DNA of 64,000 nt from Gammaproteobacteria bacterium LSUCC0096 (lineage in GTDB: Bacteria > Pseudomonadota > Gammaproteobacteria > Pseudomonadales > Litorivicinaceae). The first letter of the stretch is position 1; every line of letters starts with the position of its first letter. The position numbers and the translations under genes were made by a program. Under the pieces are notes generated by a model, which was not told the DNA's origin, did no database searches, and was given only the letters and a program-made list of their open reading frames with translations. Positions 9,012 to 25,571 of the stretch are shown here, in pieces. Location of the stretch: contig VIEA01000001.1 of NCBI GenBank assembly GCA_008087055.1, positions 1,108,245 to 1,172,244 on the forward strand. Reading direction: 5' to 3'.

Positions 9012-9263
9012 CTAATCCCTCAAGACACTTTTTCCACTTTCTGTGGGCGTGCCTTCTCGGACGCGCCCAGTTTCCACTTGTTTAATCTCGACTAACCGTT
9101 CGTTATACATATTCATACAGTCAGCAAGATCGGTTAGAACACTATCTAAGAAATCATTAGCAGAAGGGGCATATCCGCGAAATGTCAGCACACAATCGAG
9201 AGTAACTTCATGCTGTCGATCATCAAAGTCAACAGGAACTATTTTTGGGTCTTTTCTATCCAT
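9012..9263 (-). CDS. Small hypothetical protein
   Basis: This 83-residue acidic protein is preceded by AGGTTAAGGA directly before the ATG. It has no transmembrane helix or signal peptide. The middle (APSANDFLDSVLTDLADCMNMYNE) looks helical. No family is recognised. It sits on the same strand between the ADP-ribosylglycohydrolase and the gene ending at 9292. Confidence 0.5.
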   Translation of the reverse strand: MDRKDPKIVPVDFDDRQHEVTLDCVLTFRGYAPSANDFLDSVLTDLADCMNMYNERLVEIKQVETGRVREGTPTESGKSVLRD

Positions 9264-9291
9264 TCCTTAACCTCAGATATATCAAAGCTCA

Positions 9292-9921
9292 CTAGTACGT
9301 TTCTCTTTCTAGCTCAGCCATCAACCTTGGTTGAAATTCTGGCAACCATTCCCTGAAATCACCAAGAATATCACCGGATACTTTTGGAACGGCCAAAGAC
9401 AGTGCCAAATGCAATGATGTTTCGTATAACAACTTCTCTTTGGCTGGGACTCGAACAAACGGAAACATCAGACTTTTCAAGAGAAGCAGTCCATGTTTTG
9501 GTAGACCGTTAGCAGCCCGAGGGTGACCGGGTGTAGTGTGCTGCAGAAATCGATCTTCAGGAGACAGACTAGTAACTCCGACATACGCTCCGTAAGTGCC
9601 GTTGTAATCGGTGTATCCATCACGTAACACCACGTAAGTATTGCAGGTGTAATTTCGACGCGGAGGAGGGTCTAAAAGAGATAATCGGCCACGTGCCTCA
9701 GCCAACCAGGGAATAGGCGTGACATCTAGCTCCTCACAAATACGTTCAGCAATGCCAATTTTGCTGTCTTTCCCGCGTCGCCTAATTTCACAATAAGCGA
9801 ATGATAGACTCTCGATTTCTTGCTTTGAACCAGAGCTAATGGTGGAGAATAGCTTCTGATAAGACGCCTTATGAAACCAATGCTCTGCAAGCATTCGGTT
9901 TAGTTTTTGATATGTACGCAT
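9292..9921 (-). CDS. Possible GIY-YIG-like nuclease-fold protein
   Basis: This protein is 209 residues from the ATG at 9921 (MRTYQKLN). A TTG at 9963 would extend it, but that stretch overlaps the likely promoter. The centre reads NTYVVLRDGY, then GAYVGVTSLSPEDRFLQH and KHGLLLLKSLMFPF. This spacing of a YVxL strand, a YVG strand, an Arg two residues past the ED, and a Leu-rich helix resembles GIY-YIG endonuclease domains. The terminal Glu of the family would be in KEKLLYETSLH. I infer the fold from this pattern only. It is divergent from the gene at 9976. Confidence 0.5.
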   Translation of the reverse strand: MRTYQKLNRMLAEHWFHKASYQKLFSTISSGSKQEIESLSFAYCEIRRRGKDSKIGIAERICEELDVTPIPWLAEARGRLSLLDPPPRRNYTCNTYVVLRDGYTDYNGTYGAYVGVTSLSPEDRFLQHTTPGHPRAANGLPKHGLLLLKSLMFPFVRVPAKEKLLYETSLHLALSLAVPKVSGDILGDFREWLPEFQPRLMAELERETY

Positions 9922-9975
9922 TGCTAAAACGTTATAGCATTTGATTAGTATATAAAACCTCAAGAGGCGATCTGG

Positions 9976-10293
9976 ATGAACCCAGAAACGATAATCGAAA
10001 TACTAAAAGATCGAGCTCCTGCAATACTTAACCCTACTCTTACTTTTGACATGGGTGCAGAATTCACGATTCTTGCGAAGAACGGTGTGATTTTTCAGCA
10101 GCCTGGGATGCTATTAGATTATTCAGGGGGACAAATTCCTTTTTCGGACGAGATGACTTCCGCTGAGTTTCTTATGACTATTGACGACCTCGCGAGCACT
10201 CTTGAGGGGTTCTTGATCCCGTATGAGGAAATAGATTCAGCGTCATTGGACTGGTTGCTGGATTGCATCGAAAGCTCGGGCTCACAAACTTGA
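9976..10293 (+). CDS. Hypothetical protein upstream of M15-like gene
   Basis: This 105-residue acidic protein has no signal peptide or transmembrane helix. It looks like an alpha/beta domain (LTFDMGAEFTILAKNGVIFQQ), and its C-terminal helix contains a Cys. The next gene begins at its stop codon (tTGa overlap), so the two are translated together. The family is not recognised. Confidence 0.55.
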   Translation: MNPETIIEILKDRAPAILNPTLTFDMGAEFTILAKNGVIFQQPGMLLDYSGGQIPFSDEMTSAEFLMTIDDLASTLEGFLIPYEEIDSASLDWLLDCIESSGSQT

Positions 10294-10859
10294 ATCACTT
10301 CCGTAAGGGCGAAGTGTATTGTGCCGCACCTATAAGATTAGAAAATCTGTGCTCAGCAGGCACTACAGCACAAGCTTTTCCAGACATCGACAATAGGCCG
10401 AAGAGTCAAGATTCTATCGACGCATTAAATGCCTTGATATCAAATATTCTAGAACCGATAAGACTTCACTATGGACACCTGACAATAACTCATGGTTTCA
10501 CAAGCCAAGCACTTGTGAACAAAGTGCCTAGCGGCGTAGCCAAACACTTGGATCAACATTGCAGTCATGAAATAAACGGGCGAGGTAAGCGAATTTGCGA
10601 CCGTAATGGCGCTTCTGCAGATATTTATGTCCCGAATGTTACTGCTATTGATTTAGTAGCATATGTGTTCGATCACCTGCCCTTCGACCGCATTTACTAT
10701 TATGGAGTAGAGAATTCCATTCACATCTCTTATGTCGAAGGTGATAATGCGGGTCAGGTGATCCAAATGCTTAAGAGAAACGGGAGACGGACTCCGAGAG
10801 TGATTTCAAACATATCAAAGTTTTTAACCGAGATTATTTCTACCGATTACTCTTCTTGA
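10290..10859 (+). CDS. Peptidase M15-like protein
   Basis: This protein is 189 residues from a TTG overlapping the previous stop; another TTG at 10263 is possible. A helix with LISNILEPIRLHYG is followed by LTITHGFTS, which matches the start of M15-type (VanX/DacB-like) zinc peptidase folds. SHEINGRGKRI...GASADIYV supplies the His and Asp, and NSIHISY the late His. Such proteins are often phage endolysins or stand-alone proteins with the metal site lost. Whether it is catalytic here is uncertain. Its end overlaps the convergent DUF262-HNH gene by 20 bases. Confidence 0.55.
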   Translation: MNHFRKGEVYCAAPIRLENLCSAGTTAQAFPDIDNRPKSQDSIDALNALISNILEPIRLHYGHLTITHGFTSQALVNKVPSGVAKHLDQHCSHEINGRGKRICDRNGASADIYVPNVTAIDLVAYVFDHLPFDRIYYYGVENSIHISYVEGDNAGQVIQMLKRNGRRTPRVISNISKFLTEIISTDYSS

Positions 10860-12108
10860 GGTTACACTGCATACACAGAGCTTGAGCATTAGCTAAGGTG
10901 GTCTTCCCTCCAGAGGACCATGGCACAATGTGATCAGCGTGCATTTCGTGAAGCTCTATCTTCTTGTTGCAATCAGGATTTTCACAATGCTGATTGGCCT
11001 TGTACCAGATCACAAACCGTTCCTCCTGGGTAAATTGCCGTGTGGAATCTTTAGCCTCTAAATTAGTTAGCGAAGCCAAGAACCACTTTAGATAAACCTC
11101 GTGTCTGGTCTGGATAGAACTTCGTTTCGCACCTTCGGCCTTAAATGCGCTCACATAATGAGCTAAATCGCGATCAACTGGGTCATTCGATGAAATTAGA
11201 GCATCAATTTTCTCTTGGCTACTCCCTATCTCTTTTCGCCTAGCCTCAAAATTGATAAAAGCAGTTCGGACAGTACTCGCATCATTACTAGATAAAGAAT
11301 AGCTATCCATTATTTTTGAAAGCACTAAATAAAGGTCTACGAAAGGCCATTTGTAGCTGAGTCCTGTTTCTTCGTTTGGAAATACTTTTTCCATGAACCG
11401 CAGCACTTTTTTTACTTTGTTTGCGACTTTTGAATTTTCATCAAATTCATCATGATTTGCATACATCCGCATTAGGTCAGCTGCTTTCACGTCATGAGAG
11501 CCGCCTGCTAGCTCTAGCTGAACGACGTGACTAAGATAATCCTGCCGCTCAAAACGAGCTGTTTTAATAGAGAGGCGATCGAATATGGGAAATGTGATAG
11601 CTATGTCATGAATGAAATCACGCATTTTTCCACCAACAGCATTACGCTTTTCCGCAGAATTCAGAGAGACACCCTCTTGAAGCCGTAAGAATAACTGTCG
11701 TATTTCATCGTCTGTAGCATCACTGATAACACTGATCTGTAGCTGATAACCGTCGAGCTTTTGCACAGCCTCTATAGGTAAGTCTGCGTGGTACTTGCCC
11801 GAAAGATTTCCAAAATCAGGCAGATCAGACGAGTCATTACTAAGCGCAAACTTACCCTGAACGAATTCATGAATCGTCGTGAGTCTCTGCTGCCCATCCA
11901 CAACATCAAACTGGTATTCAGAAATAGTGGAATCCCTGAAATAAAACTTAGGAAGATCGAAACCTCTTAAAATCGAGTCGATTAACCTCGCTTTTTGCGA
12001 ATCATTCCAAACTAAACCTCGTTGATAATCTGGACCGAAGTTTATTTTTCCGAACATATGGGGAATCACTAATGCGGCTATCGCATAGTTGTTTACATGT
12101 ACTTTCAT
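10840..12108 (-). CDS. DUF262-HNH nuclease (SspE/GmrSD-like)
   Basis: This 422-residue protein has an N-terminal DUF262 (GmrS/ParB-like NTPase) domain shown by YQRGLVWNDSQKARLIDSIL and DGQQRLTTIHEF. The C-terminus is a canonical HNH endonuclease with CENPDCNKK, HADHIVPWSSGG and LCMQCNLKKS. In the phosphorothioation system the effector SspE is a DUF262-DUF1524 protein that uses NTP hydrolysis and DNA nicking to block phage. This gene has the same plan with a different HNH type. It is the last gene of the minus-strand run, 23 bases after the PLD gene. It could be an SspE equivalent or a separate type IV-like enzyme. Confidence 0.8.
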   Translation of the reverse strand: MKVHVNNYAIAALVIPHMFGKINFGPDYQRGLVWNDSQKARLIDSILRGFDLPKFYFRDSTISEYQFDVVDGQQRLTTIHEFVQGKFALSNDSSDLPDFGNLSGKYHADLPIEAVQKLDGYQLQISVISDATDDEIRQLFLRLQEGVSLNSAEKRNAVGGKMRDFIHDIAITFPIFDRLSIKTARFERQDYLSHVVQLELAGGSHDVKAADLMRMYANHDEFDENSKVANKVKKVLRFMEKVFPNEETGLSYKWPFVDLYLVLSKIMDSYSLSSNDASTVRTAFINFEARRKEIGSSQEKIDALISSNDPVDRDLAHYVSAFKAEGAKRSSIQTRHEVYLKWFLASLTNLEAKDSTRQFTQEERFVIWYKANQHCENPDCNKKIELHEMHADHIVPWSSGGKTTLANAQALCMQCNLKKSNR

Positions 12109-12131
12109 TCGCTAAGCTATATATCCTGCGG

Positions 12132-12968
12132 TTAATGATTCAAACTCAATACTTGAGAATGTCCAGGAACAGTAATCGAAATCTCGTCGTTTTTAAATTT
12201 TTGTATCAACTCAACTAGATTTGCCAATAAATCTTTTATCTCACGCCTATATGGTGCTGGGTCATCATAAACATCATCATGTAACTTGCTAGATAGGTAA
12301 CCAAAACTTGCTGTCCCACCATTTTCTTTCAATGTTTCTTTAATCCAGCGATACGCAGCACTCGACTCAAACTGCCCAACAGTGCTCCATCGATGCGCAT
12401 CCATTGCTTCACCCTGAGGAAAATCAGAACAATAAAGTGATCTTTTCTCGATAAAAATGTCTTCGGGCCAAGCCGGAAATTGCTGAGAATCGTGTTGCGA
12501 AAGTTGTTCTATGTAGTCACGCATTTTTTGTAGCTCACGGGGACCCAAGACCACCCCTTCAGACCATAAGTTGTCAGCTATCTGTATATCTCTATCAGAT
12601 GGAACACCTTCGGTACTGAGCTCATCATTGCAATATCCAACTAACGCCAGCCCACTTCCCGTTAAGTTCGCGCTTCCAACAAAAAGGACCGAATCAAAAA
12701 GATACAGCTTGACGTGCAGTGCTGAGGAGACACGGACATGAATCCCATGTGACAAAGCAATCTCCAATGCTTCAATAGAGCATGCGCCGGCTAAAACATC
12801 AGACGGATTACACCTGATCAGCAATCTGTCGTTTCGAATGACATCTCGACTTTGGAGCACCAAGTTAATCCCTGGCATTGTAAAGAAAGCCGAGTATATC
12901 CAGCATCTCTCGGACAATCTGAAATGGGCAACCAATCGCTCTCGTAATTCAGCAGTCGGCAGCAACAT
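12132..12968 (-). CDS. PLD-family nuclease, SspH-like position
   Basis: This 278-residue protein has a single HKD motif (HVKLYLFD, followed by FVGSANLTGSGL) in the middle, as in phospholipase D-superfamily nucleases that work as dimers. The C-terminal 100 residues are helical and unassigned. It starts two bases after the GHKL ATPase stop, so it is translationally linked. In the SspFGH restriction arm described for some SspABCD loci, a nuclease damages DNA lacking phosphorothioate. The letter assignment here is inferred from order and domain type. Confidence 0.75.
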   Translation of the reverse strand: MLLPTAELRERLVAHFRLSERCWIYSAFFTMPGINLVLQSRDVIRNDRLLIRCNPSDVLAGACSIEALEIALSHGIHVRVSSALHVKLYLFDSVLFVGSANLTGSGLALVGYCNDELSTEGVPSDRDIQIADNLWSEGVVLGPRELQKMRDYIEQLSQHDSQQFPAWPEDIFIEKRSLYCSDFPQGEAMDAHRWSTVGQFESSAAYRWIKETLKENGGTASFGYLSSKLHDDVYDDPAPYRREIKDLLANLVELIQKFKNDEISITVPGHSQVLSLNH

Positions 12969-12970
12969 TT

Positions 12971-14740
12971 TTACGATTCGTTCAGCTTAAATAGTAACTT
13001 TTTGATCCACGAACCCCACTTCTCGCGGAATTCCTCTAGGATTTGTTGTTGTTTATCATCGTAAAGTTCGTCTTCAGCACGCGCAGCCGCTAATAGAAAC
13101 AGATTCATCGCTAAAGCTTCTTGAGTATCCGGCCCTTTACAAATCTTGTCGTAAAGCTCGTCTTGGAATGGATGCTTTCTATTAAGCACAATAGTCATTA
13201 CGTGACCTGATCGTTCGATCGTATAGAATTGATTCCCGGGCCAACTCTTTTCTGCAATCGTGACTCCTGCATTTTTGATTTCATCAACCATATGCTGCAG
13301 CTGTTCTTCAGGTAAATCGCCATACTCTATAGTCAGAATATCTCTGAGTTGAGTGTCCTGCTCTTCCTGAGTGATACTGTCTTTCTCATGAGCCGTCTTC
13401 GTGGGTGCTTTATCCTTTTGGAAGTCTTCACCCGCCATTGCAGATGACTGGCTTGCAGGGTCCGTGCGAGTAGCGGAGCCTTTACCACCAGCTGTCTTGC
13501 CCTTCTCTGGAGCCATTCCGTCGATGCGATCTTTCATACCCTTGTGTGCTTGCTTAAATCGCATGCTGAGTTGTGCTCGGAGAGCTATTTTGTGATCGTA
13601 ATCGACATCGTCCGCCGATACTCCATCAAGTAGATTCTGTACTTCTTCCTGCTCAATGTAATCTACATCACGAACCGCTTGTTTATTATTCGTAACGCCA
13701 AACAGTTCATCTAAATCCGGTTCAAAGCGAATTTCACATCCCCAATATCTCTCTTTAAGCTCCTGAGGATTGAAGTATCCAAAACAACCGAAATCAATTT
13801 CTCTACCTGCTCTGACGAATGAAATACCGGTATTGGATTTGTAGTGATCAACTATGTCCGCGTTATCTGCGTTTCTCGTCCACCTTGCAATATCCTGTCG
13901 AATAGTCGAAAAGCGCATTTCCACGTATGAGGTTTGGCCTCCAACACCAATAACAGCGATCTTTTGAACGTCGCCAAACATTTCGTTTGTGGCTTCACTC
14001 TCGAATCCTGGAAGGTTATGCGGAGTCATTAAATAGAGTGGGTCATTCGGCAAAAGTTGATTACTTTCGACCCCTTCATCATTGGGCTTCACCACCAAAA
14101 TTCGGATGTCCCTTCGGCGACCATATGTATCGTCATCATCCAGGAAATGTCTATAAATCCGGCAAAAGTTGGATTCCATCCTTTTCACAAGGGTCTGCGT
14201 TCTTTTGAGGTCCAAACGGTCGCAGTTCTCCCAGACAATAAGTGACCCATGCTCTTTAATTTGAAGGTCTAAATGCCTAAGAAGATTTCCGGGAATAGCA
14301 CACTCTTCGACTGGGTTGGTCTCTTGTTGTTTTGATTCAATCACCTCGTCAATATCGAGATAGGTTGAATGACAGATTCCGCCTTGCCAGGAATAAACCG
14401 TCACACGTTTACATTGGCTGATGGATGCGAGAGGTAATCCGACTCCAAAGCGACCAATACCTCCTCTCTGATTAAGTCGCGTGCCTTGGGCAAATGCCAA
14501 GCAAATACCCAAAACATCGGCTGGCATACCGTGACCATCATCGTACACAGCAAGAGAGCGAACATTTGCGACAGTGCGAGCCGCGCTCACATTTTCTTCA
14601 AATGCCATAATCCGAATGTTGTCCGCATCAGCCTGTATTGAGTTATCAACGAGTTCAGCTAGAGCCATCGATGTATCTTTATATCCGGCATCACGAAAAG
14701 ACATGATCGCTGTAGCAGCAGGAAAGATATGTGTTGTCAT
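12971..14740 (-). CDS. GHKL/Hsp90-type ATPase, SspG-like position
   Basis: This protein is 589 residues from the ATG at 14740, two bases after the helicase stop; an ATG at 14755 would overlap that gene. The Bergerat ATP site is clear: ELVDNSIQAD (N box), DDGHGM (G1) and GRFGVGLPLASI (G2), within the first 110 residues. The middle resembles the transducer domains of GHKL machines. The region around residues 415-460 is low-complexity (Lys/Gly/Ser/Ala/Thr) and probably a linker. GHKL ATPases occur in many DNA-repair and defence systems. It would give ATP-driven clamping in the restriction arm (inferred). Confidence 0.75.
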   Translation of the reverse strand: MTTHIFPAATAIMSFRDAGYKDTSMALAELVDNSIQADADNIRIMAFEENVSAARTVANVRSLAVYDDGHGMPADVLGICLAFAQGTRLNQRGGIGRFGVGLPLASISQCKRVTVYSWQGGICHSTYLDIDEVIESKQQETNPVEECAIPGNLLRHLDLQIKEHGSLIVWENCDRLDLKRTQTLVKRMESNFCRIYRHFLDDDDTYGRRRDIRILVVKPNDEGVESNQLLPNDPLYLMTPHNLPGFESEATNEMFGDVQKIAVIGVGGQTSYVEMRFSTIRQDIARWTRNADNADIVDHYKSNTGISFVRAGREIDFGCFGYFNPQELKERYWGCEIRFEPDLDELFGVTNNKQAVRDVDYIEQEEVQNLLDGVSADDVDYDHKIALRAQLSMRFKQAHKGMKDRIDGMAPEKGKTAGGKGSATRTDPASQSSAMAGEDFQKDKAPTKTAHEKDSITQEEQDTQLRDILTIEYGDLPEEQLQHMVDEIKNAGVTIAEKSWPGNQFYTIERSGHVMTIVLNRKHPFQDELYDKICKGPDTQEALAMNLFLLAAARAEDELYDDKQQQILEEFREKWGSWIKKLLFKLNES

Positions 14741-14742
14741 AG

Positions 14743-16332
14743 TTAGTGTTCCCATACATCGTTGAAGTAGTTGTAGGCCATATTCTCGGATGGCATTCCC
14801 AAAATATTGTCAATCACGTCAATCACCGTAGCCGACAAATTGCCTCCATTTTTCGGTCCTCTGATCGCACGACCTATCATCTGCGAATAGAGAACTACAG
14901 ATGCTGTAGGTCTAGTGATAAAAACCGTATTGGTATTGGGAGCATCAAAACCTGTGGTCAGTACCCCATAATTAATTAAGAAATTCACTTCGCCAGCTTT
15001 ATATTGGCGTATAGACTCCGCTCGATCGTAGGGGCTTGTTGAGCCGGTTATAAGCCGTGAATCAATATCGCGAGCGGTGCATAAGTCAGAAAGTAATTCG
15101 GCATGAGCGACTGAACAAGCAAAAACAATAACCTGCTTATCCTCACTATCAAGCTCTACCAATCGGTTAAAAATCAGAAGATTGCGTTCATTTTGCTCAC
15201 CGAGCCTCTTCAAAAAACCTTCCGGTAACTCCATTAACTCGGTCAGTTTCCTGCGCTCATCGTCGGTGAGGTCAAGATCAAGGTCTGTTTTAATTTCCTC
15301 TCGCTCCAAGCGGGCTAAGACTCCGAGGTCCTGGAGATAGCCGATCCCATCTTCCATCGCCGTACCGTCATCGTGACATAAACCAACTTTATTACCGTTG
15401 AAGAACTGATTTAGCCTTCGATTTTCATCTTCATCATCTCCACGGCCGGGAGTGGCTGTCAGGCCCATTATTCTGGGAGGGATCGAAGCCATGGACAATG
15501 TGCTTATTGCGACATCGTAGGTCGGTGCGATTGCTTTGTGAGCTTCATCCACCACAATCATCCGAGTGTGTTTACTTATTGAATCCAAGAGTTTCAGATC
15601 ACTGGCTGACTTTAGTTGAGCATGAATGGACTGGAAGCTGGCAACTACAAAACCTCTTTCTGGTACTGACCCCGGCCGTTCTACGCCACCCCAAACGCGC
15701 GTAATGGCAACCATATGATCACCCTTCTCACGCCATATTCGTTCAATAGACTCTACGGCCTGTTGGCACAACTCTTCAGAATGTGCGAGCCAGACTATCA
15801 GCGCAGGCCCAGGTGGCTCTTCGCGAAGAATATCGGCCATTAGCTCACAAGCTGTTCGAGTCTTACCAGCTCCCGTCGGCATATGTAACAAAACTCTAGA
15901 TGAGCTCTCTCGCAGCTTTTGAAGAGCGCGTATCTTGATATTGAATTGATATGGATGAAGGTCTGTCTGAACAGAGATAAGGGAAATTGGATTGATGACA
16001 GCTTTTTTATCCTGTGGACCGAATTCTTTCGGTAGCCCAAGCGTTTGCAACAATCGCTGCACTGCTTCAGATCGAATAGACCATTGAACAGTCCTACCAG
16101 ACCCTAGCACATAAGAACGATCGAAATCGTCCATATGAGACAAAACCATATCACGGAGCTTTTTTTCAGCGAGGATCGCAGCACCATAGCGTTGAACTAA
16201 GATGGCACTCAACCTTGAGGAGGTTACCTTTACGCGAAACAGCCTTTCCATGCTTTCGAGGGTTTCCATACCCACAAGTTCGGAAAGCTTCGCCACACCA
16301 AAGCGGTTCATAATGGTTAGAAGCTTTTCCAT
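14743..16332 (-). CDS. SF2 DEAD/DEAH helicase, SspF-like position
   Basis: This 529-residue protein begins with an unassigned helical region (about 125 residues) followed by a full SF2 helicase core: the Q-motif-like HPYQ, Walker A PTGAGKT, motif II VVDEAHK, motif III GLTATPGR and motif VI QMIGRAIRG. It resembles type III restriction/UvrB-like translocases. It is separated from the SspD-like gene by 36 bases and coupled to the GHKL ATPase gene. Together with those genes it fits the three-gene SspFGH cassette that accompanies SspBCD in other genomes. Confidence 0.8.
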   Translation of the reverse strand: MEKLLTIMNRFGVAKLSELVGMETLESMERLFRVKVTSSRLSAILVQRYGAAILAEKKLRDMVLSHMDDFDRSYVLGSGRTVQWSIRSEAVQRLLQTLGLPKEFGPQDKKAVINPISLISVQTDLHPYQFNIKIRALQKLRESSSRVLLHMPTGAGKTRTACELMADILREEPPGPALIVWLAHSEELCQQAVESIERIWREKGDHMVAITRVWGGVERPGSVPERGFVVASFQSIHAQLKSASDLKLLDSISKHTRMIVVDEAHKAIAPTYDVAISTLSMASIPPRIMGLTATPGRGDDEDENRRLNQFFNGNKVGLCHDDGTAMEDGIGYLQDLGVLARLEREEIKTDLDLDLTDDERRKLTELMELPEGFLKRLGEQNERNLLIFNRLVELDSEDKQVIVFACSVAHAELLSDLCTARDIDSRLITGSTSPYDRAESIRQYKAGEVNFLINYGVLTTGFDAPNTNTVFITRPTASVVLYSQMIGRAIRGPKNGGNLSATVIDVIDNILGMPSENMAYNYFNDVWEH

Positions 16333-16368
16333 GCAAAGTAATCCTTACTTGTTTACTGGATACACATA

Positions 16369-17238
16369 TCACTTATGACATGAAAAGCAAATCTTTGAAG
16401 ACCCATAGACCTCTTCGATCGAAACACCCTCATCCGAATCAGGACGTAGTGCATTACCAGGGCGCCGACCTATTCTAGCCTTACGTTTTTCAAAATCTGC
16501 CTTGATTTGCTCAACCCTCTCAGGCTGTGAGAGTTCGATTAGTGACTCCCTCTCAGACCATGTAAATGGAGAGCCGTTCTCGATGGCATCTTTTTCGTAT
16601 TTGATAGCCTCAGCAAACGCATCAGGATGCTTCTCCATCAGATGAACCCACTCAATTTTTTGCTGATAAAAACAGAAGGTACAGCCGCTCCTACTCCGCC
16701 ATTTATAGTATTCAGGCAAGCCGAGTCCGTAATCTTCTAGAATCGAAAACACCCCTTCCTTATCGATTCCTTTATCCATAAACGGCATACATGGAACGAT
16801 TAAATCATTTGTCGAGATGTAACCTTCCCGGAAGGTTTCATCAGCTCTAATGGCAACAAGGGTGACAACCTTATTACCTTCTTCGAGCGTCGGTTCAATC
16901 CACTCTTCAAAGGGCTTAATTTTAAGTTGACGTGTACACCAGCGCGTTTGAGGCGAAGGCAGAAAATGCCCATAACGAATCTTGAGCCAATAATCGAAAT
17001 CACGATCAGCATTCAAATGAACGATATTTTTACCCAGGACGACTTCAAGTTTTTGTAGGTACTCGTATACCTCAGGTAACTCTTTACCCGTGTCTGAGAA
17101 GAAGTACTCGATGTCTAAGTCAGGATGCTCCTGCGACATAAATACTGCTAAAGCAGATGAGTCTTTTCCGCCCGATAGCCCTAATACAAAACGGGTTCCA
17201 TCAGGCTGCTCGTACAACTTGTCAACGGACAACTTCAT
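16369..17238 (-). CDS. sspD: PAPS-reductase-like ATP pyrophosphatase (SspD/DndC-like)
   Basis: This 289-residue protein has the N-type ATP pyrophosphatase loop LSGGKDSSALAV at residues 20-31. Cysteines in RWCTRQLK, SGCTFCF and the C-terminal CFSCHK could carry sulfur or an Fe-S cluster, as in DndC. In Dnd and Ssp phosphorothioation this enzyme activates the DNA phosphate with ATP so that sulfur can be inserted. Its ATG overlaps the stop of the SspC-like gene (ATGA). The assignment rests on domain and position between the DUF4007/ATPase pair and the restriction genes. Confidence 0.85.
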   Translation of the reverse strand: MKLSVDKLYEQPDGTRFVLGLSGGKDSSALAVFMSQEHPDLDIEYFFSDTGKELPEVYEYLQKLEVVLGKNIVHLNADRDFDYWLKIRYGHFLPSPQTRWCTRQLKIKPFEEWIEPTLEEGNKVVTLVAIRADETFREGYISTNDLIVPCMPFMDKGIDKEGVFSILEDYGLGLPEYYKWRSRSGCTFCFYQQKIEWVHLMEKHPDAFAEAIKYEKDAIENGSPFTWSERESLIELSQPERVEQIKADFEKRKARIGRRPGNALRPDSDEGVSIEEVYGSSKICFSCHK

Positions 17239-20200
17239 ATCGTTTTCGACTCCTTCGATAGTCTCTTAGCCAAGACTTGTGCCAAGGCGGCAGATAAGAT
17301 GGATTCATCCTGAGTAGATTGTGCGATCGCCGATTCCAATCGGTCCGCAGTCTCAGCGACTAGGGCTCGTTCGCTTTCAGTCAAATTTAAATCCAAGAGC
17401 ACATCATTGTCAGGGGTCGAGACAACTGCGAAATAATCACCCTCGCTCTCAGAATCACCAAGCAATGAGGATAGCCGTCTAAATTTTTTTGCAAAAATCA
17501 GGAGCTCAGCATCAGCACGCTTCAAATCGAGATCAGTCCATAGCTTTTCAGGCTTACCTGTAAGTGCAGCTATAAGATCGAGAGAGGGTTGTTCAACTGA
17601 ACACTGCAGGAGTGCCTTCCGTACCGATTCAAATGCATGATCCCCTGTATCAGGAAGTAGGGCTATTTTAGCCGCAACCTGTCTCGCGGATGCTTCAGTG
17701 ACACTTAAGCCTAGGGCCTGCAGGAGCTTAGACACATACGTAGATGCCAATTGATGCGGATGGTTGACCAACTCAGACATTGTTAATGCTAATTTCTCAG
17801 CAAGTTTGTCTTGGCCTAGAACCCTTGGAATATCTTCAAACAAAAGCTTATTTGGATCGTGCGCGGACTTTAATACCGTTCGCAAACTAATTGCGTTGTC
17901 CGATAGATGCCGTGTTTTCTTCGAGAACGGCGACAGGCTATCGAAGACCTTTACCAACACTCGTGCAATTTCGAGAGGTTCCTCAGAAGCAGCATTAGCC
18001 TCCAAAACTGAGCTAAGTCCTCTAGCAAGATCGCGTAAAACCTCTAGCTTGGATTCGTCAAGCTCGTTCCACCCCAGTGCAAAATCTTTGGGTGACTGCA
18101 TGCATACTTCAATATCGATCTCCGTGAGATCAGCACGGAATACACCTTGCTGATAAATACTCAGTCGGTCGTGGTATGTCATCGTAAAAATTGGGGCAAG
18201 AAGAGAGTGAAGACCTGCTGGCACACCAAATGGAGGTGCTGCCCAAAACTCTTGTATCGCAGCCATCGTTAGTTGCTCGGGGCTTGCTTGGATCAATGCC
18301 AACGTTTCTTCAAACATCTGTGCCAATGCTGAATTTGGATCAGACTTCAGTAAATCAACTAGCGCATAGTTTTTATCAAGGAGTCCGAACTTAACTAAAA
18401 CACTCTCAAGAATACCTTTCTCAGCGGGGTATCCGTCGATACCTAAAGATTCTTGCCCCTGATTATGGAATAACTTGCTTATCAGGGTATTGACGCCTGA
18501 CTGGGCTGCCGTATTAACAAAAGAACGTGCCAACAATTCGTTATCGATATAAGGCATGCTTCTGTATACATGGCGCATGACATCCGATACAGCAGAATTG
18601 AGACCTTTACTGGATTCAGCATGAAGCACGCCAAAAATCATCCATTCGCCATCATTTACTTGCTGATTAAAAGCCGTCTGAAAAGCCTTCTCTGCTGCAT
18701 GAAGCCGAATACTCACCTCACGTTTTGCAACCTTGTCCAGTGCCAACAGTTTATTGGTTGCTATTAGCTTTTGTAGTCCAACCGCATCTTTAAGAGCCCT
18801 CACAGCAAGGGTGCTCGAGAGCGAGGCTGCGATCACAGCAATTGACGACTCAACATCATCGACTACCGCTTTAATTTCTTCGATTGAGCGCCCGACTCCA
18901 ACAACCGCGGACACAGGGTGCTGCGATACTGCATCTCTCAATTGATCCAGTGCCGTGTCTTTACTGTAGACAAATATCGGGCACCATTTCAGCGCGCCGG
19001 ATTCGTGATAAAAGCGTTTTGCCAAAACAGGCGACAAATCGAGTGCTCTGGCAAGTTGCTCTGGTTCAAGATCAGCTCGACCGATTGATACATCTTTCAA
19101 TGATTCAATCACGTCAAAGTCCGAGCCTTCAACCGGGAAATACTCCTGAGAATAGTCGCGGTAAACAATCAGCTTTTTATTAACTAGGCCGGCTATCGCG
19201 GCCTTAGTATCCGCCTTATCTCCCTTAGGCAGAGCGAGCTCGATGAGTCGTTCACTAACACTAACGCCCATATTTCTTGGAGTCATCGCGAGACAAGCTA
19301 TCGCCTTATAGGCCGATACTTCAGACGCAGTTGCCTCACTCATCCTCAATCGCTGCAATCCGTCTTGCACTGTTCTCCACAAAGAACTCAGCTCACCTGT
19401 AAACAGGGTTGGACCGTGATTAGCTTCAAGATAGTCAAAGAAGTGCGTTAACCCATACAGCTTCGTCTGCCCGCCCTCAACCATAGCGCGGTATGAACTC
19501 GGCTCTACAGAGCCAAAAAACGCTACGACAGATCGTTGGTTTTGTTGAACTAGCGTTTTTAAAATTCCGACAATGGCGACTGAAGCGACTGGCTCGAGTG
19601 CCGGCAGTTCACGAAAAACCGTTTGAAAAATTGTACGAGAGCTCGCAGATGAACTTAAGGCTCGTGCCGCTGCATCAGCATGAGCTTTCGCTGTTGGCCG
19701 GAGATCGATATCACTTATTAGTCCAGAAACTAAGCCAAGCTGCTCTTCTGTGGTTGGAGCAAACGGTAAGTCTTGGAATCGACCCTGAACTTTTCTCCAT
19801 TCGTTCGTGACGAGCGAATCAGCTCCTGTCAGATAGTCTCGGAACGATTGATGCAAACAGCAGATAATGGTGACTTTACCGCCTTTCCTCTCGCCAAGTT
19901 CGGCAAGCATTTGAAGCGCGTACAAATCGCCTCCGGAAGATGCGGCGTACTCAAGTGATTTGCCGAATTCGTCAACGATCAAAATCAAACCGCCGGGAGT
20001 CGAGGCTGCTTTTTCCTGGATAGCCTTTACAATCGCATCCGCTGTCGATTCGTTATCTAGACCCAATGATCGCGCAATCGAGGAAGTAACATCCTCACGC
20101 GCGCCGAGAGCCACCACAACTTCACCGCGCCCATTTTCTGCGCCATTTATAGCTTCGGATAGCTCTGTCGCTGAACTACCCAATCGATCTGCAGCCAATT

Positions 20201-20426
20201 TCGCTACTTCTGGAGAACCGCCGATCACAGCAGATATTAGAGACAAGAATGTTGATTTACCCGACCCATAAAGCCCGGTTAACGTAAATGCACCTTGCCC
20301 TCGTGCCCGTGCCGCAACGATTTTATCTACCGTATCTTTGATGGTCTGGTTTACTTGGATCGACTTGATGAAGCTTTCATCGTTGAGGTCTCTAGCAACA
20401 ACGGATGATCTGCGAATTAGACTCAT
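17235..20426 (-). CDS. sspC: Large P-loop ATPase (SspC-like)
   Basis: This protein is 1063 residues from the ATG at 20426, which overlaps the DUF4007 stop (ATGA). The first 300 residues are a P-loop ATPase: GLYGSGKSTFLSLI as Walker A and LILIVDEFGKSLEY as Walker B. About 700 residues of helical sequence with no recognised domain follow. In the Ssp system a large ATPase acts with the DUF4007 nickase and the PAPS-reductase-like protein to make single-strand phosphorothioate. The order B-C-D seen here matches that system. Confidence 0.8.
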   Translation of the reverse strand: MSLIRRSSVVARDLNDESFIKSIQVNQTIKDTVDKIVAARARGQGAFTLTGLYGSGKSTFLSLISAVIGGSPEVAKLAADRLGSSATELSEAINGAENGRGEVVVALGAREDVTSSIARSLGLDNESTADAIVKAIQEKAASTPGGLILIVDEFGKSLEYAASSGGDLYALQMLAELGERKGGKVTIICCLHQSFRDYLTGADSLVTNEWRKVQGRFQDLPFAPTTEEQLGLVSGLISDIDLRPTAKAHADAAARALSSSASSRTIFQTVFRELPALEPVASVAIVGILKTLVQQNQRSVVAFFGSVEPSSYRAMVEGGQTKLYGLTHFFDYLEANHGPTLFTGELSSLWRTVQDGLQRLRMSEATASEVSAYKAIACLAMTPRNMGVSVSERLIELALPKGDKADTKAAIAGLVNKKLIVYRDYSQEYFPVEGSDFDVIESLKDVSIGRADLEPEQLARALDLSPVLAKRFYHESGALKWCPIFVYSKDTALDQLRDAVSQHPVSAVVGVGRSIEEIKAVVDDVESSIAVIAASLSSTLAVRALKDAVGLQKLIATNKLLALDKVAKREVSIRLHAAEKAFQTAFNQQVNDGEWMIFGVLHAESSKGLNSAVSDVMRHVYRSMPYIDNELLARSFVNTAAQSGVNTLISKLFHNQGQESLGIDGYPAEKGILESVLVKFGLLDKNYALVDLLKSDPNSALAQMFEETLALIQASPEQLTMAAIQEFWAAPPFGVPAGLHSLLAPIFTMTYHDRLSIYQQGVFRADLTEIDIEVCMQSPKDFALGWNELDESKLEVLRDLARGLSSVLEANAASEEPLEIARVLVKVFDSLSPFSKKTRHLSDNAISLRTVLKSAHDPNKLLFEDIPRVLGQDKLAEKLALTMSELVNHPHQLASTYVSKLLQALGLSVTEASARQVAAKIALLPDTGDHAFESVRKALLQCSVEQPSLDLIAALTGKPEKLWTDLDLKRADAELLIFAKKFRRLSSLLGDSESEGDYFAVVSTPDNDVLLDLNLTESERALVAETADRLESAIAQSTQDESILSAALAQVLAKRLSKESKTI

Positions 20427-21349
20427 GCGTACGCCCCATCCAGCCAACGGTTAGCAGCTTGATAAGACAATGGCTCGGAGCGCTGAATTTGACGGACCCC
20501 GCCACCTTCGCTGGAAACAAATACACCATCAGTAACTTCTTCCAGTGCATCAATTAGCTCCTCAAACTGCTCAGAAGCTATTCTTAAGACTTTGCCAGGC
20601 GATCCCACAGAATACCTAAGTGTATCGACGGCCAAAGTGCTCGCTTCTGCGTTCGCTTGTTTCCAATACCGAAAAACGAGATACGCAAACATTGAAGGAG
20701 ACAAATCGACTGATAGTGGCTGAAGGAAAAATTCGTCGCCTTCGCGCTTCAGGAAACCCAACTCGACAAGGGGACCATCGATAACATCCTCAGCTGCAGC
20801 CTTTCGTTTTACAGGCTTTTTAACGTAGCAGTTAATACATGTTTGAACATCTCTTTGAATCGTTGCCCTCGAGGGCATCTTCATTCCCGATGCCTGAAAT
20901 TTTGCTACTACTCCATGCAATAAATCATCCACCACAAAGGATTCGTGGGGGATTTCGTTAAACAAATAAAACCAGCTGACATAACTCTTATTGCTTGCAA
21001 GCAAGTAGTGAATCAACGCCGATGTTTGAGCTTTCTCCATGAACGGATCAAGACCAAACTCTCCGAAAATACGATCGCCAAGTTCGGTAGGTGAAGGCAC
21101 CAGCGGGATATCCGAATTCTGAGCGATTATCTGAGTGGATTTACCCCAAAATTCCATGGCTAAACACATGTTCCTACCGGCGCCTAATGTGGCGATCGCC
21201 GCCGGTGCGCGAAAAGCGTTTTCCATCGCTCCGTTTTGAGCCATTTCTTTGGCTAAATCATAGGATTTCTTTAACCAGCCAAAACGCAACGAGAAGGTCT
21301 CATGACCTGATACAATTGGCTTGCTGTCTTCAAGTAATTCTGTTTGCAT
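20423..21349 (-). CDS. sspB: DUF4007 protein (SspB-like nickase)
   Basis: This 308-residue protein carries the DUF4007 N-terminal signature SGHETFSLRFGWLKKSYD followed by a short alpha-helical domain (FRAPAAIATLGAGRNMCLAMEFW). DUF4007 proteins are the SspB component, reported to nick DNA at the site of phosphorothioation. AGGGAA precedes the ATG. It is the first gene of the minus-strand operon and has only 45 bases before the divergent cysteine desulfurase. No classical nuclease motif is visible by eye, so the nickase role is from family knowledge. Confidence 0.85.
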   Translation of the reverse strand: MQTELLEDSKPIVSGHETFSLRFGWLKKSYDLAKEMAQNGAMENAFRAPAAIATLGAGRNMCLAMEFWGKSTQIIAQNSDIPLVPSPTELGDRIFGEFGLDPFMEKAQTSALIHYLLASNKSYVSWFYLFNEIPHESFVVDDLLHGVVAKFQASGMKMPSRATIQRDVQTCINCYVKKPVKRKAAAEDVIDGPLVELGFLKREGDEFFLQPLSVDLSPSMFAYLVFRYWKQANAEASTLAVDTLRYSVGSPGKVLRIASEQFEELIDALEEVTDGVFVSSEGGGVRQIQRSEPLSYQAANRWLDGAYA

Positions 21350-21394
21350 AAATTTCCCTGCTGAACAAACAGTATATAGATTTCGGAGCTGAGA
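21350..21394. promoter_or_regulatory. 45-bp divergent promoter region of the ssp locus
   Basis: Only 45 bases separate the sspB-like ATG from the sspA-like TTG. The stretch includes AGTATATAGA, which could act as a -10 element on either strand, and GGAG six bases before the TTG as ribosome site. Two promoters must overlap here or extend into the coding regions, which would tie sulfur supply to the modification and restriction genes. The reading is by eye only. Confidence 0.45.
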
Positions 21395-22552
21395 TTGGCC
21401 GCCACACCACTATTTTTTGACCATAATTCGTCAACGCCAGTTTCTCCGCGGGTCGAGAGGCGAATGCTTGAAGTTCTTCACAAATTCTACGGAAATCCGC
21501 ACTCACAAACGCACAGACATGGATGGAACGCAGCCAGTCTGATTTCAGATCTGTCCTACAGCATCAGCTCATATTTTTCAGCGAGCTTACATACGGTTTT
21601 TACCTCAGGGGCAACGGAGGCAAATAACCTCGCATTTAATCTTAAATTCCCGTCTCAAAGACCGAATGTATTGATCGGACCTTTGGAACATTCAGCTGTA
21701 GAAGAACCTGCACTGCGACTAGCGCAAAAATTAGGCGGGGAACTCATCACTATTCCTTGTAACGAAGAAGGCTATATCGACCTAGGGTTTGTGACCGATG
21801 AACTTTTGGCGAGTTGCGCTATTGTATCGGTCAGCTTTGCTTCCGGCGAAATAGGAACCATACAAACAAAGCTAGAGAGACTGCGCGATAAAGCCAAGCA
21901 AAGCGGCGTGTGGTTTCATAGCGACATGTCACAGGCGCTGCAGCACCCACAAGCGAGACTGTTCGCCAGCGGGTGTGACGCCATCTCAATTTCTGGTCAT
22001 AAAATATATGGTCCACAAGGGGTGGGGGCACTTGTTGTAAGTGAGCAATTCCGAAATGCACTGGAACCAATTCTTATTGGCGGCGGGCAACAAGATGGTG
22101 TTCGAGCAGGAACAATGCCTACATTTTTGTGCGCTGGACTCGCGGAAGCATTGATAGAGACATCCGATTGGATTGAATCTGGAGCTTCCGCAGACCTGAC
22201 TGACAGGGTTCGATTCTTTTTCAAAATGCTCGAGGCCGAAATTGGGATTAGATACTCCGAATCGATCGAAATCATTGGCCCAACAACATTTACGGATCGC
22301 GTACCTGGAAACCTGACGGTGCGGCTGCCTAAGGGGCTAGATGCGTCTGATCTTCTAATGGCCTCTTCGGCTACTTTTTCTGCATCTCAAGGCTCTGCAT
22401 GTCACTCAGGTCAAGAAACCGCATCATCATCGTTACGCGCTGTAGGAATAACTGACCGGGACGCTCGTAGAGTAATTCGGTTTGGCTTGGGTCGAGACAC
22501 CAAGAGGAGCGATATAACAACTGTGGTCGATGAAATTAGCAGATTGATCTAG
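21395..22552 (+). CDS. sspA: Cysteine desulfurase (SspA/DndA-like)
   Basis: This 385-residue class V aminotransferase-fold enzyme starts at TTG with GGAG upstream. It has the expected order: FDHNSSTPVSPRV at the N-terminus, TSGATEANNLAF for cofactor contacts, the PLP lysine in SGHKIYGPQG and the active-site cysteine in SQGSACHSG near the C-terminus. Such enzymes take sulfur from cysteine as a persulfide, which SspA/DndA hand to the phosphorothioation machinery. It faces away from, but is next to, the sspBCD-like operon. Housekeeping IscS could be the donor in its place, but the position argues for a dedicated role. Confidence 0.85.
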   Translation: MAATPLFFDHNSSTPVSPRVERRMLEVLHKFYGNPHSQTHRHGWNAASLISDLSYSISSYFSASLHTVFTSGATEANNLAFNLKFPSQRPNVLIGPLEHSAVEEPALRLAQKLGGELITIPCNEEGYIDLGFVTDELLASCAIVSVSFASGEIGTIQTKLERLRDKAKQSGVWFHSDMSQALQHPQARLFASGCDAISISGHKIYGPQGVGALVVSEQFRNALEPILIGGGQQDGVRAGTMPTFLCAGLAEALIETSDWIESGASADLTDRVRFFFKMLEAEIGIRYSESIEIIGPTTFTDRVPGNLTVRLPKGLDASDLLMASSATFSASQGSACHSGQETASSSLRAVGITDRDARRVIRFGLGRDTKRSDITTVVDEISRLI

Positions 22553-23147: not shown

Positions 23148-24476
23148 TTAATCATCTCGACACCAAGAGCAATCGAGGTCTTCGACCGCAAACGAGTACC
23201 GCATCCACAGTGAATACATCTCAGGAGTCGATTCGTATACTCGAGCGACAACATTTACCTTCTCACCCTCAGGAACATCTTTTAAATACTCGTACAACTC
23301 TTTCAAATTAAGATGCGGCCTACCATCTACAGAGAAAATCTCGTTCCCCGAATCAAAATCAATCCCAGATGAGTCATCGTAGTCCGTATCGATACTCTCA
23401 ATAACCAAGACCGGAGGTTGCATTCGTCCATTCAGGAATGATGAATCACTCTTATCATCCTCCGCGATCGTCAAGCCGGTGAAAAAAAGCCACTCCGTTA
23501 AATGCAACGATTGCCCACGTGTAATCGGAATCTCAATCAACTCTTCCATCCCATCACGCAATACGGACAAGGTAACGCGATCTCCGTCATACCCACGCAT
23601 CGCGTCAGCCAGATCGCCATCTGTCTCAGGATGCCAGAAGTTGCCATTCCAACTCAGTATCTCGTCACCAGGCTTTAATCCCACCGACGGATGAAAAACC
23701 ACACCAACCAAATTGCTCAACTCATCATCGACAACCATCAATTGGAATTTGAACCTTGGCCGTGCGGGATTCTTGCCCTCAGATAGGAGTGTTGTGATCC
23801 GGCAGATATCTTTACTTTTGGTGAGGAAACCTAAATCACTTGAATTAAATCCTGCTGTCATCATTCCGATGACTTCGCCAGTATCGCGCATCACAACTGG
23901 ACCGCCAGAACTCCCTGACTCGACAACTGTATCGGTCGTAAAGTAGCTCCCTTCGACATGAAAATCTTTTTGCCCGGATAGAACACCCGTCGAAAACGTG
24001 AATTCTTGACGCTTTGGATGACCAATCGAGAACACTTTGTCGCCACGGTTAAACTCGTAGTCGCAATCCAAGGTCAGAGGTTCGCGGTCCTTGACCAGTG
24101 CTGGATCGACCTGAATTACTGCCACATCATGCTTTGAATCAACGAATACACGTTTAGCAGTAGTAAAGCTCTTTTGATCTTCAAACCGAACGCGGAGTTG
24201 TGTGGGGCCATATCCTGAAACATGGGCATTGGTCATGATCCAGCCTTTGTCGCGATCAATCAGAAAGCCCGTCCCTGTCCACCGACCATAAGGATCATCA
24301 TCTTCAAGAAGGCCATACGCTAAATGCGCCTTGATCATCACCACCGCGTCCGATGCACGCGCAACATGTTGAGATGCAGTCTCAGCACTAGCCACGCCAC
24401 ATACTGCTAGTAGGGAGAACGCTATGGATACTCGAAACTTGGACCACGGACCTGTGTTCATATCTTTGTAATTCAT
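23148..24476 (-). CDS. Secreted trypsin-like serine protease with PDZ-like domains
   Basis: This 442-residue protein has a signal peptide (hydrophobic VSIAFSLLAVCGVASA, cleavage after about residue 32). The catalytic His is in TNAHV, the Asp in KHDVAVIQV and the Ser in GSSGGPVV, so the triad is complete as in DegP-type S1C proteases. Two C-terminal PDZ-like segments follow (GVVFHPSVGLKPGDEILSWN and a second near SVDGRPHLNLKELY). It is expected to act in the periplasm. It starts at ATG 24476; a second ATG fifteen bases on is also possible. Its presence in the island, beside a defence locus, is unusual. Confidence 0.75.
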   Translation of the reverse strand: MNYKDMNTGPWSKFRVSIAFSLLAVCGVASAETASQHVARASDAVVMIKAHLAYGLLEDDDPYGRWTGTGFLIDRDKGWIMTNAHVSGYGPTQLRVRFEDQKSFTTAKRVFVDSKHDVAVIQVDPALVKDREPLTLDCDYEFNRGDKVFSIGHPKRQEFTFSTGVLSGQKDFHVEGSYFTTDTVVESGSSGGPVVMRDTGEVIGMMTAGFNSSDLGFLTKSKDICRITTLLSEGKNPARPRFKFQLMVVDDELSNLVGVVFHPSVGLKPGDEILSWNGNFWHPETDGDLADAMRGYDGDRVTLSVLRDGMEELIEIPITRGQSLHLTEWLFFTGLTIAEDDKSDSSFLNGRMQPPVLVIESIDTDYDDSSGIDFDSGNEIFSVDGRPHLNLKELYEYLKDVPEGEKVNVVARVYESTPEMYSLWMRYSFAVEDLDCSWCRDD

Positions 24477-25418: not shown

Positions 25419-25471
25419 ACTCCCAGCCTTCCAAGCTGGTGATGAGGGTTCGATTCCCTCTACCCGCTCCA
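25419..25471 (+). pseudogene. tRNA-Gly(TCC) 3' half, island attachment-site remnant
   Basis: From the anticodon arm (CCAGC, loop CTTCCAA with anticodon TCC, GCTGG) through the T-arm (GAGGG TTCGATT CCCTC) and acceptor TACCCGC with TCCA, this reads as the 3' half of tRNA-Gly(TCC). The 5' half (expected GCGGGTA and D-arm) is absent; AT-rich sequence replaces it. Integrases that use tRNA genes leave a 3' duplicate at the far end of the element, so this marks the right boundary of the island. The intact tRNA should lie outside the window. Confidence 0.85.
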
Positions 25472-25571
25472 ATTAAGACCTCTTCACCAAATTGGTTGCG
25501 AATCCTCACCAAACCGTTAAGTTTCCAGACGCATAACCGATATATGAATAACTGACGTATTGGGAAGTTTT

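Follow-up and report, generated by a model that had tools for sequence, protein, structure and literature searches.

A conserved helicase, GHKL ATPase and PLD protein module linked to sspBCD, a candidate restriction module of single-strand phosphorothioation loci

Which restriction partner belongs to a DNA phosphorothioation (PT) locus that carries neither of the known ones? The SspABCD modification module introduces single-strand PT at 5'-CpsCA in genomic DNA. Of 2,678 sspBCD clusters in one survey, 2,211 were without sspFGH and sspE, and further restriction counterparts were offered as one explanation (PMC8092258). Gammaproteobacteria bacterium LSUCC0096 raises the question anew, as a stretch of 64,000 nucleotides of its genome (contig VIEA01000001.1, positions 1,108,245 to 1,172,244; hereafter the window) contains an ssp locus in which the modification genes are followed by genes for a superfamily 2 (SF2) helicase, a GHKL ATPase and a phospholipase D (PLD)-like protein, together called the trio below. 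These three genes recur together as a conserved module linked to sspBCD. We consider it likely that the locus encodes a restriction-modification system based on PT, whose restriction module is as yet undescribed.

The locus consists of sspA on the plus strand and a divergent seven-gene operon on the minus strand, transcribed in the order sspB, sspC, sspD, SF2 helicase, GHKL ATPase, PLD protein and a gene encoding a DUF262 and an HNH domain. Neighbouring genes of the operon overlap or are separated by at most 36 bp, which bears out an earlier note on this DNA that had described a single operon joining helicase, GHKL and PLD genes to the ssp genes, with the DUF262-HNH gene at its end; the coordinates and gene order given there hold as well. 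That note had also claimed a complete SspABCD set and had named a profile search as the check. All four proteins gave strong, near full-length PADLOC matches: the SspB, SspC and SspD profiles hit clustered genes, SspA is present as the sulfur source, and the DUF4007 protein, the large ATPase and the phosphoadenosine phosphosulfate (PAPS) reductase-like protein are SspB, SspC and SspD and not members of unrelated families. At family columns conserved to at least 95%, nearly all residues are kept in the window proteins, including the PLD histidine and lysine, the Walker lysines of the helicase and SspC, the GHKL glutamate and asparagine and the SspA cysteine, with a few deviations in SspA, SspC, SspD and the GHKL protein; thus, the locus looks intact.

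Linkage of the GHKL family to ssp genes was assessed by scanning the GHKL alignment alone against one genome per species (84,980 species); the best 80 of at least 332 confirmed relatives were analysed, and their loci were annotated by profiles built from 13 loci. The query alignment had been built from loci already known to carry ssp genes, and at least one analysed locus (L037) comes from a seed genome (L030). Two or more of SspB, SspC and SspD were encoded in the flank of 61 of the 80 GHKL loci, and one or more in 65; where at least 9 kb were available on both sides, two or more were present at 41 of 48 loci. Judged by record titles, the 61 ssp-linked loci span 14 phylum-level groups. In 40 of them, module and sspC share a strand, and in 21 they lie on opposite strands; since both orientations occur, this is not one frozen operon. 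A sample of 299 genomes of the window's phylum contained five full-length or nearly full-length GHKL genes, that of the window included, and at all five the helicase, GHKL and PLD genes adjoin ssp genes. The same linkage is seen on plasmids: eight of the top 10 regions (of 52 plasmid matches) were inspected, from Alphaproteobacteria, Cyanobacteria and Bacteroidota, and all eight carry ssp genes within 12 kb; the third gene of one of them (L021) was not PLD-like by profile.

Distant GHKL relatives served as controls. Beside 13 of these (L034, L115-L126), which match only the N-terminal GHKL part of the family, the ssp, helicase and PLD profiles found no match in any of the 13 stretches, four of which (L121, L122, L125 and L126) have less than 6 kb on one side. 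L033 (G167:C203), the fourteenth relative, was set apart for the dnd-type genes alongside it: here, an intermediate GHKL gene (180 bits) and a diverged helicase gene stand beside dndA- and dndC-type genes, which suggests that the same kind of ATPase occurs at a locus of Dnd, the other PT system.

The reverse census started from SspD, which was found in 11 of 398 genomes of the window's phylum, 31 of 292 cyanobacteria (at 1e-30), 14 of 296 Bacteroidota and 7 of 296 Actinomycetota (the phylum names of these samples are inferred). Fifty neighbourhoods were examined (11, 19, 14 and 6, respectively), with 12 of the 31 cyanobacterial genomes excluded for an SspD score below 340 bits and one of the seven actinobacterial genomes for an SspD fragment at a contig end. 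The module was marked by a GHKL score of at least 250 bits. Our own PbeA model took in some trio helicases and was left unused; its long single-gene matches of about 800 bits in L160 and L161, where PbeC is absent, were not counted as Pbe. Two seeds were added to the SspE model. Two of the kept SspD matches (G519, G427) contain stop codons, five stretches (L143, L150, L166, L167 and L170) are cut by contig ends, and the gene pair of G459, beyond its census stretch, was counted from the same plasmid in L024, whose length of 55,266 is identical. A helicase-GHKL pair was found beside SspD in 22 of the 50 neighbourhoods (window's phylum, n = 6; cyanobacteria, n = 8; Bacteroidota, n = 5; Actinomycetota, n = 3), or in 18 of 46 without the four previously known centre genomes. 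These same 46 contained SspFGH six times, PbeC four times and SspE twice, once together with the trio (G009), and 17 had none of trio, SspFGH, PbeC and SspE; among the 17, an SspH-like piece (365 bits) occurs in G249 and an MzaB-like GHKL gene in G745 (L155). The module is apparently widespread and common among Ssp PT systems and, as far as we could find (see below), undescribed.

Several further observations were made at these loci. PbeC-type genes adjoin sspBCD, not dnd, in L128, L156, L157 and L168, with a clear PADLOC PbeA in L128. Small cyanobacterial genomes (G464, G406, G629, G423 and others) encode up to seven SspD-like PAPS-reductase genes each, of about 265 aa, and no trio was found at low-scoring cyanobacterial SspD genes in two stretches (L151, L152). 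Cyanobacterial ssp loci (L078, L134, L138, L139, L140, L142 and L149) repeatedly encode a DndB-like protein of about 760-790 aa, which contains PF14072 in L139.

What kinds of protein make up the module? The helicase contains the Pfam domains ResIII, DEAD and Helicase_C, matches the RadD model at 1.7e-34 (below its curated cut-off) and has RadD and SauUSI as its relatives in the PDB; it also bears a distant likeness to PbeA, with a match of 6.7e-25 that covers the profile in part. By sequence profile, the relatives of the GHKL protein are MORC2, MORC4 and MORC3, as for a GHKL-S5 module, and in fold comparison MORC3, SMCHD1 and MORC4 rank at the top, with MutL and topoisomerase VI close behind. 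The S5 motif GhXhhpXXRhl (PMC2292703) is not matched by the corresponding GISFVRAGREI at residues 310-320, where E319, invariant in the family, occupies a position at which the MORC motif needs a hydrophobic residue; the protein is therefore classed as MORC-like and not as MORC. In the PLD protein, H85, K87, S99 and N101 are invariant across a 47-row alignment and form the HxK...GSxN motif, and its AlphaFold2 model (pLDDT 93.8) finds SauUSI as the best fold match (2.6e-8), with NgoAVII lower. SauUSI (PDB 7clg) and NgoAVII are ATP-dependent restriction enzymes built from PLD and helicase parts, and the helicase and PLD protein of the window resemble a split SauUSI. SauUSI itself is a single polypeptide, has no GHKL ATPase and reads methylated cytosine.

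Relatives of the helicase occur at 76 of the 80 GHKL loci. The third gene varies: it is PLD-like in 51 and encodes a different nuclease-like protein of about 340-380 aa in 10. In L087, this alternative third gene matches a PADLOC endonuclease at 8.3e-15 over residues 1-94 and, marginally, a Cap4 nuclease. SspE is found at 10 of the 80 loci, six of them without PLD. Five loci (L047, L051, L053, L080 and L088) carry SspFGH, helicase, GHKL, the alternative gene and convergent sspBCD in this order, and thus two restriction modules on one modification set; in L060 and L087, SspFGH also adjoins helicase-GHKL and the alternative nuclease-like gene.

These co-occurrences bear on whether the trio is simply a known partner in diverged form. 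In the earlier note, the helicase-GHKL-PLD arm was taken for SspFGH and the DUF262-HNH gene for SspE, so that both known restriction types would stand in one operon. Neither identification survives profile search, and a third, distinct type of candidate partner takes their place. No trio protein matches the PADLOC SspF, SspG or SspH models at E ≤ 0.001; at E ≤ 10, there was no match for the GHKL and PLD proteins and none among the best 25 of the 33 helicase matches, the remaining eight being the weakest (E above 0.011). The models themselves work, as the genes beside sspBCD in L130 match them at 4.6e-232, 5.2e-215 and 0, with scores of 713 to 2,359 bits. The SspABCD-SspFGH system of Vibrio anguillarum FF-93 has the same modification genes and likewise a three-gene restriction cassette adjoining sspBCD (PMC8092258). 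The cassettes differ in content: in the published account, SspF contains a Walker A motif, SspG is without known similarity and SspH ends in an FtsK-like C terminus (PMC8092258), SspH having about 1,800 aa in L130, whereas the window encodes a helicase, a MORC-like ATPase and a PLD protein. The SspH model gave matches in six of six trio genomes, but only at profile positions 1334-1765 and in frames of 734-1,294 aa, and it also matches 8 of 14 control genomes; as these matches are confined to the FtsK-like part and frequent in control genomes, we take them for FtsK. Outside the locus, the window genome has only FtsK-type SspH matches. Moreover, SspE and SspFGH coexist with helicase-GHKL (L029, L103, L104, L047 and L051), which makes the trio distinct from both. 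That the trio or the DUF262-HNH protein is a diverged SspFGH or SspE system is therefore very improbable in our view, even though the trio occupies the position adjoining sspBCD and DUF262 is common to SspE.

The DUF262-HNH protein has 422 aa, with a GmrSD_N domain and a PF01844 HNH domain and no GmrSD_C (PF07510) by Pfam. SspE acts with the same modification genes and shares DUF262 with this last gene of the operon, but is a protein of GmrSD_N and GmrSD_C (DUF1524) with about 770 aa (L104, L103; 766 model positions). The SspE model matches the window protein only at 5.8e-4 over residues 26-82, and no SspE was found in the window genome at E ≤ 1e-10; its best PADLOC match is NsnA (1e-37). A DUF262 gene recurs after the PLD gene, though rarely: GmrSD_N relatives lie directly 3' of it in L107 and in L037, which shares its genome with L030. 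Pfam finds HNH in none of the GmrSD_N relatives of L037, L107 and L065, so conservation of the HNH domain across these relatives is unsupported. Probably, the DUF262-HNH protein is an optional extra nuclease or modification sensor.

Other known systems with related proteins were compared with the trio as well. In DndCDEA-PbeABCD, too, helicase and PLD domains accompany PT modification, but there both are fused in PbeA, the partner PbeC resembles SMC proteins and modification is by dnd genes (PMC6459918); in the window, PLD is a separate protein next to a GHKL ATPase, and the modification genes are of the ssp type. An identity with PbeABCD was rejected, as the likeness of the helicase to PbeA covers part of the profile and leaves out its PLD part, no operon protein has a PbeC match, and the GHKL and PLD proteins match no Pbe model at E ≤ 10. 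MZA was rejected too: the N-terminal GHKL domain of MzaB aligns with the window GHKL protein, but the match scores 71 bits, where the curated cut-off is 850, and covers only residues 18-207 of 594. Type 4 BREX with SspB/C/D-like proteins comes to mind since BrxC matches SspC at 1.3e-65 and BrxP matches SspD at 1.1e-10. The Ssp models match SspC and SspD far better, and there is no PglZ in the window genome (G000) at 1e-5 (BrxL was not searched separately), so that this explanation is the least probable of all that we weighed.

How might the system work? SspA, SspB, SspC and SspD would mark a single strand of host DNA with sulfur at a short motif, as is known for the family and expected here. 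The helicase, the MORC-like GHKL protein and the PLD protein would form one effector to which this mark tells self from non-self: a GHKL dimer would close on, or clamp, DNA upon ATP binding, the helicase would translocate along the DNA or open it, and a PLD dimer would cut DNA that lacks the mark. We infer that the trio proteins form a complex, act on DNA, spare PT DNA and stop phages, whereas computation establishes the protein families, the integrity of the active sites, the conservation of the trio and its link to sspBCD. A further step is tentatively suggested: the MORC-like ATPase would lie at the centre of the most common bacterial effector of single-strand PT epigenetics, would read the mark and, with a helicase and an exchangeable nuclease, would clamp, compact or cut unmarked invading DNA.

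Several observations weigh against a PT-sparing restriction module of this kind. Nineteen of the 80 GHKL loci have fewer than two ssp genes in the flank; 12 of these have less than 9 kb on one side and seven do not. Of the seven, L060 and L087 carry SspFGH, L069 and L104 one ssp gene each, and L055, L072 and L099 none. The last three belong to a group of Chloroflexota loci (L055, L056, L072, L079 and L099; L056 and L079 with short flanks) that have helicase-GHKL without PLD and ssp genes; the neighbours in L055 are rhamnose isomerase, aldolase/dehydrogenase and CopC-CopD genes. Helicase-GHKL can thus live without linked ssp genes, as L055, L072 and L099 have neither PLD nor ssp. Conversely, GHKL proteins of other kinds can gather at ssp loci as well: in L155, an MzaB-like GHKL gene (14471-16276, 92 bits) lies about 4 kb from SspD; it is preceded by a gene for an 817-aa protein without a PADLOC match, downstream of sspBCD, and is perhaps another GHKL-type partner. 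The PLDc_2 match of the third protein (22.7 bits) stays below the Pfam cut-off of 27, and this protein is a candidate nuclease by motif and fold. Finally, the sequence is compatible both with PT protecting DNA and with PT activating the effector. Agreement of protein distances, uncorrected for species relatedness, was strong within ssp (SspB-SspC, r 0.95; SspC-SspD, r 0.88) and within the module (helicase-GHKL, r 0.68; GHKL-PLD, r 0.57) and weak between the two (GHKL-SspC, r 0.39; helicase-SspC, r 0.16). The weak agreement between the modules counts against our reading, but the pattern as a whole also speaks for it: two coherent modules, loosely re-paired, are expected of modification and restriction modules.

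The main rival takes up the question of protection or activation: the trio would be PT-sensing, not PT-sparing, so that PT marks of the host switch it on and phage replication is blocked without an attack on unmarked DNA as such. Precedents exist, as the activity of SspE depends on PT (PMC8092258), and PbeABCD, whose PbeA joins PLD and helicase, needed PT, with dnd loss causing no growth defect (PMC6459918); the window helicase is distantly PbeA-like. Pfam lists no PT-reading domain for the trio at 0.001, however, and the likeness to Pbe does not extend to the GHKL and PLD proteins, while separate PbeA and PbeC genes adjoin other ssp loci. We regard PT sensing as rather unlikely. An independent defence module that stands near sspBCD only through shared defence islands is unlikelier still, and we think it improbable. 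It would account for the five Chloroflexota loci (two with short flanks), the weak distance agreement between the modules, the MzaB-like GHKL gene in L155 and the position of the window locus inside a probable mobile island. Linkage is frequent and tight, though, with 41 of 48 full-flank loci against none of 13 controls and with overlaps or short gaps in the window, and in L033 a diverged relative adjoins dndA- and dndC-type genes of the other PT system. A restriction module that works with PT modification therefore remains our preferred reading.

The features of the locus are collected in Table 1. An alternative in-frame ATG at 20426 may serve as the start of sspC, with which the gene would overlap the sspB stop by 4 bp.

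Table 1. Genes of the ssp locus and the probable island end, with positions in the window
Feature	Position	Strand	Evidence
sspA, cysteine desulfurase	21395..22552	+	PADLOC SspA 2e-79, DndA 1e-75; Aminotran_5; conserved cysteine kept
sspB, DUF4007 protein	20423..21349	-	PADLOC SspB 4.6e-67; PF13182 2.3e-61
sspC, large ATPase	17235..20447	-	PADLOC SspC 3.8e-194; Walker A conserved G, G, K, S kept
sspD, PAPS-reductase-like	16369..17238	-	PADLOC SspD 4.9e-124, full profile covered
SF2 (RadD-like) helicase, first module gene	14743..16332	-	ResIII 1.3e-21, Helicase_C 3e-16
MORC-like GHKL-S5 ATPase with its own C-terminal region	12971..14755	-	HATPase_c_3
PLD-type nuclease candidate, single HKD-like motif and C-terminal region	12132..12968	-	PLDc_2 9.2e-5
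DUF262 (GmrSD_N) and C-terminal HNH protein, last operon gene	10840..12108	-	PF03235 6.3e-20, PF01844 7.2e-12
tRNA-Gly(tcc) 3'-end copy, probable attR	25422..25477	+	56-bp match, 96% identity to G000:C1:1100489-1100544

A probable integrative island, about 33 kb long, contains the ssp locus. On one side, a tRNA-Gly(tcc) gene (G000:C1:1100464-1100538) is followed by a tyrosine integrase, the two together spanning G000:C1:1100464-1102216 (L175, 4465-6217), and the stretch that recurs as the last feature of Table 1 overlaps the 3' part of this tRNA gene. SspD was found at 1e-30 in 1 of 22 genomes of the genus (several of them incomplete), a rarity in line with recent gain. The island also encodes a CHAT-domain protein (L175:6168-8525), a sigma-70-region-2 protein (9141-10031) and a Schlafen/AlbA_2 protein (11897-13063), and a trypsin-like protease with a PDZ domain (window 23148-24476) lies just outside the ssp locus and within the island.

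Operons of a GHKL-S5 ATPase, an SF2 helicase and a nuclease were predicted as restriction-modification systems, together with DNA methylases, in 2008 (PMC2292703). The prokaryotic MORC and paraMORC operons of that work resemble the window module in these proteins and in the predicted function, but they are tied to DNA methylases and the window module to ssp genes. In the accessible text of PMC2292703, the terms PAPS, phosphoadenosine and cysteine desulfurase are absent, while genus names are the only places where "sulf" and "thio" occur. GHKL is not mentioned in the main text of a PT survey (PMC10853773) or a BREX survey (PMC12839542), and we found no description of a linkage between trio and ssp genes in the accessible open literature, including PMC12137116, PMC10952713, PMC11931770 and PMC12904381, a scope that leaves subscription papers and preprints aside.

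The helicase-GHKL module is a concrete candidate for the partner of a large share of the partnerless sspBCD clusters. If the tentative view of its ATPase as a mark-reading core is true, the module would be a bacterial counterpart, and perhaps a source, of the eukaryotic MORC/SMCHD1 machines that silence genes and invaders by chromatin marks. The module makes the question of the missing partner testable with one operon and ties MORC-like ATPases to a defined mark on the DNA backbone.

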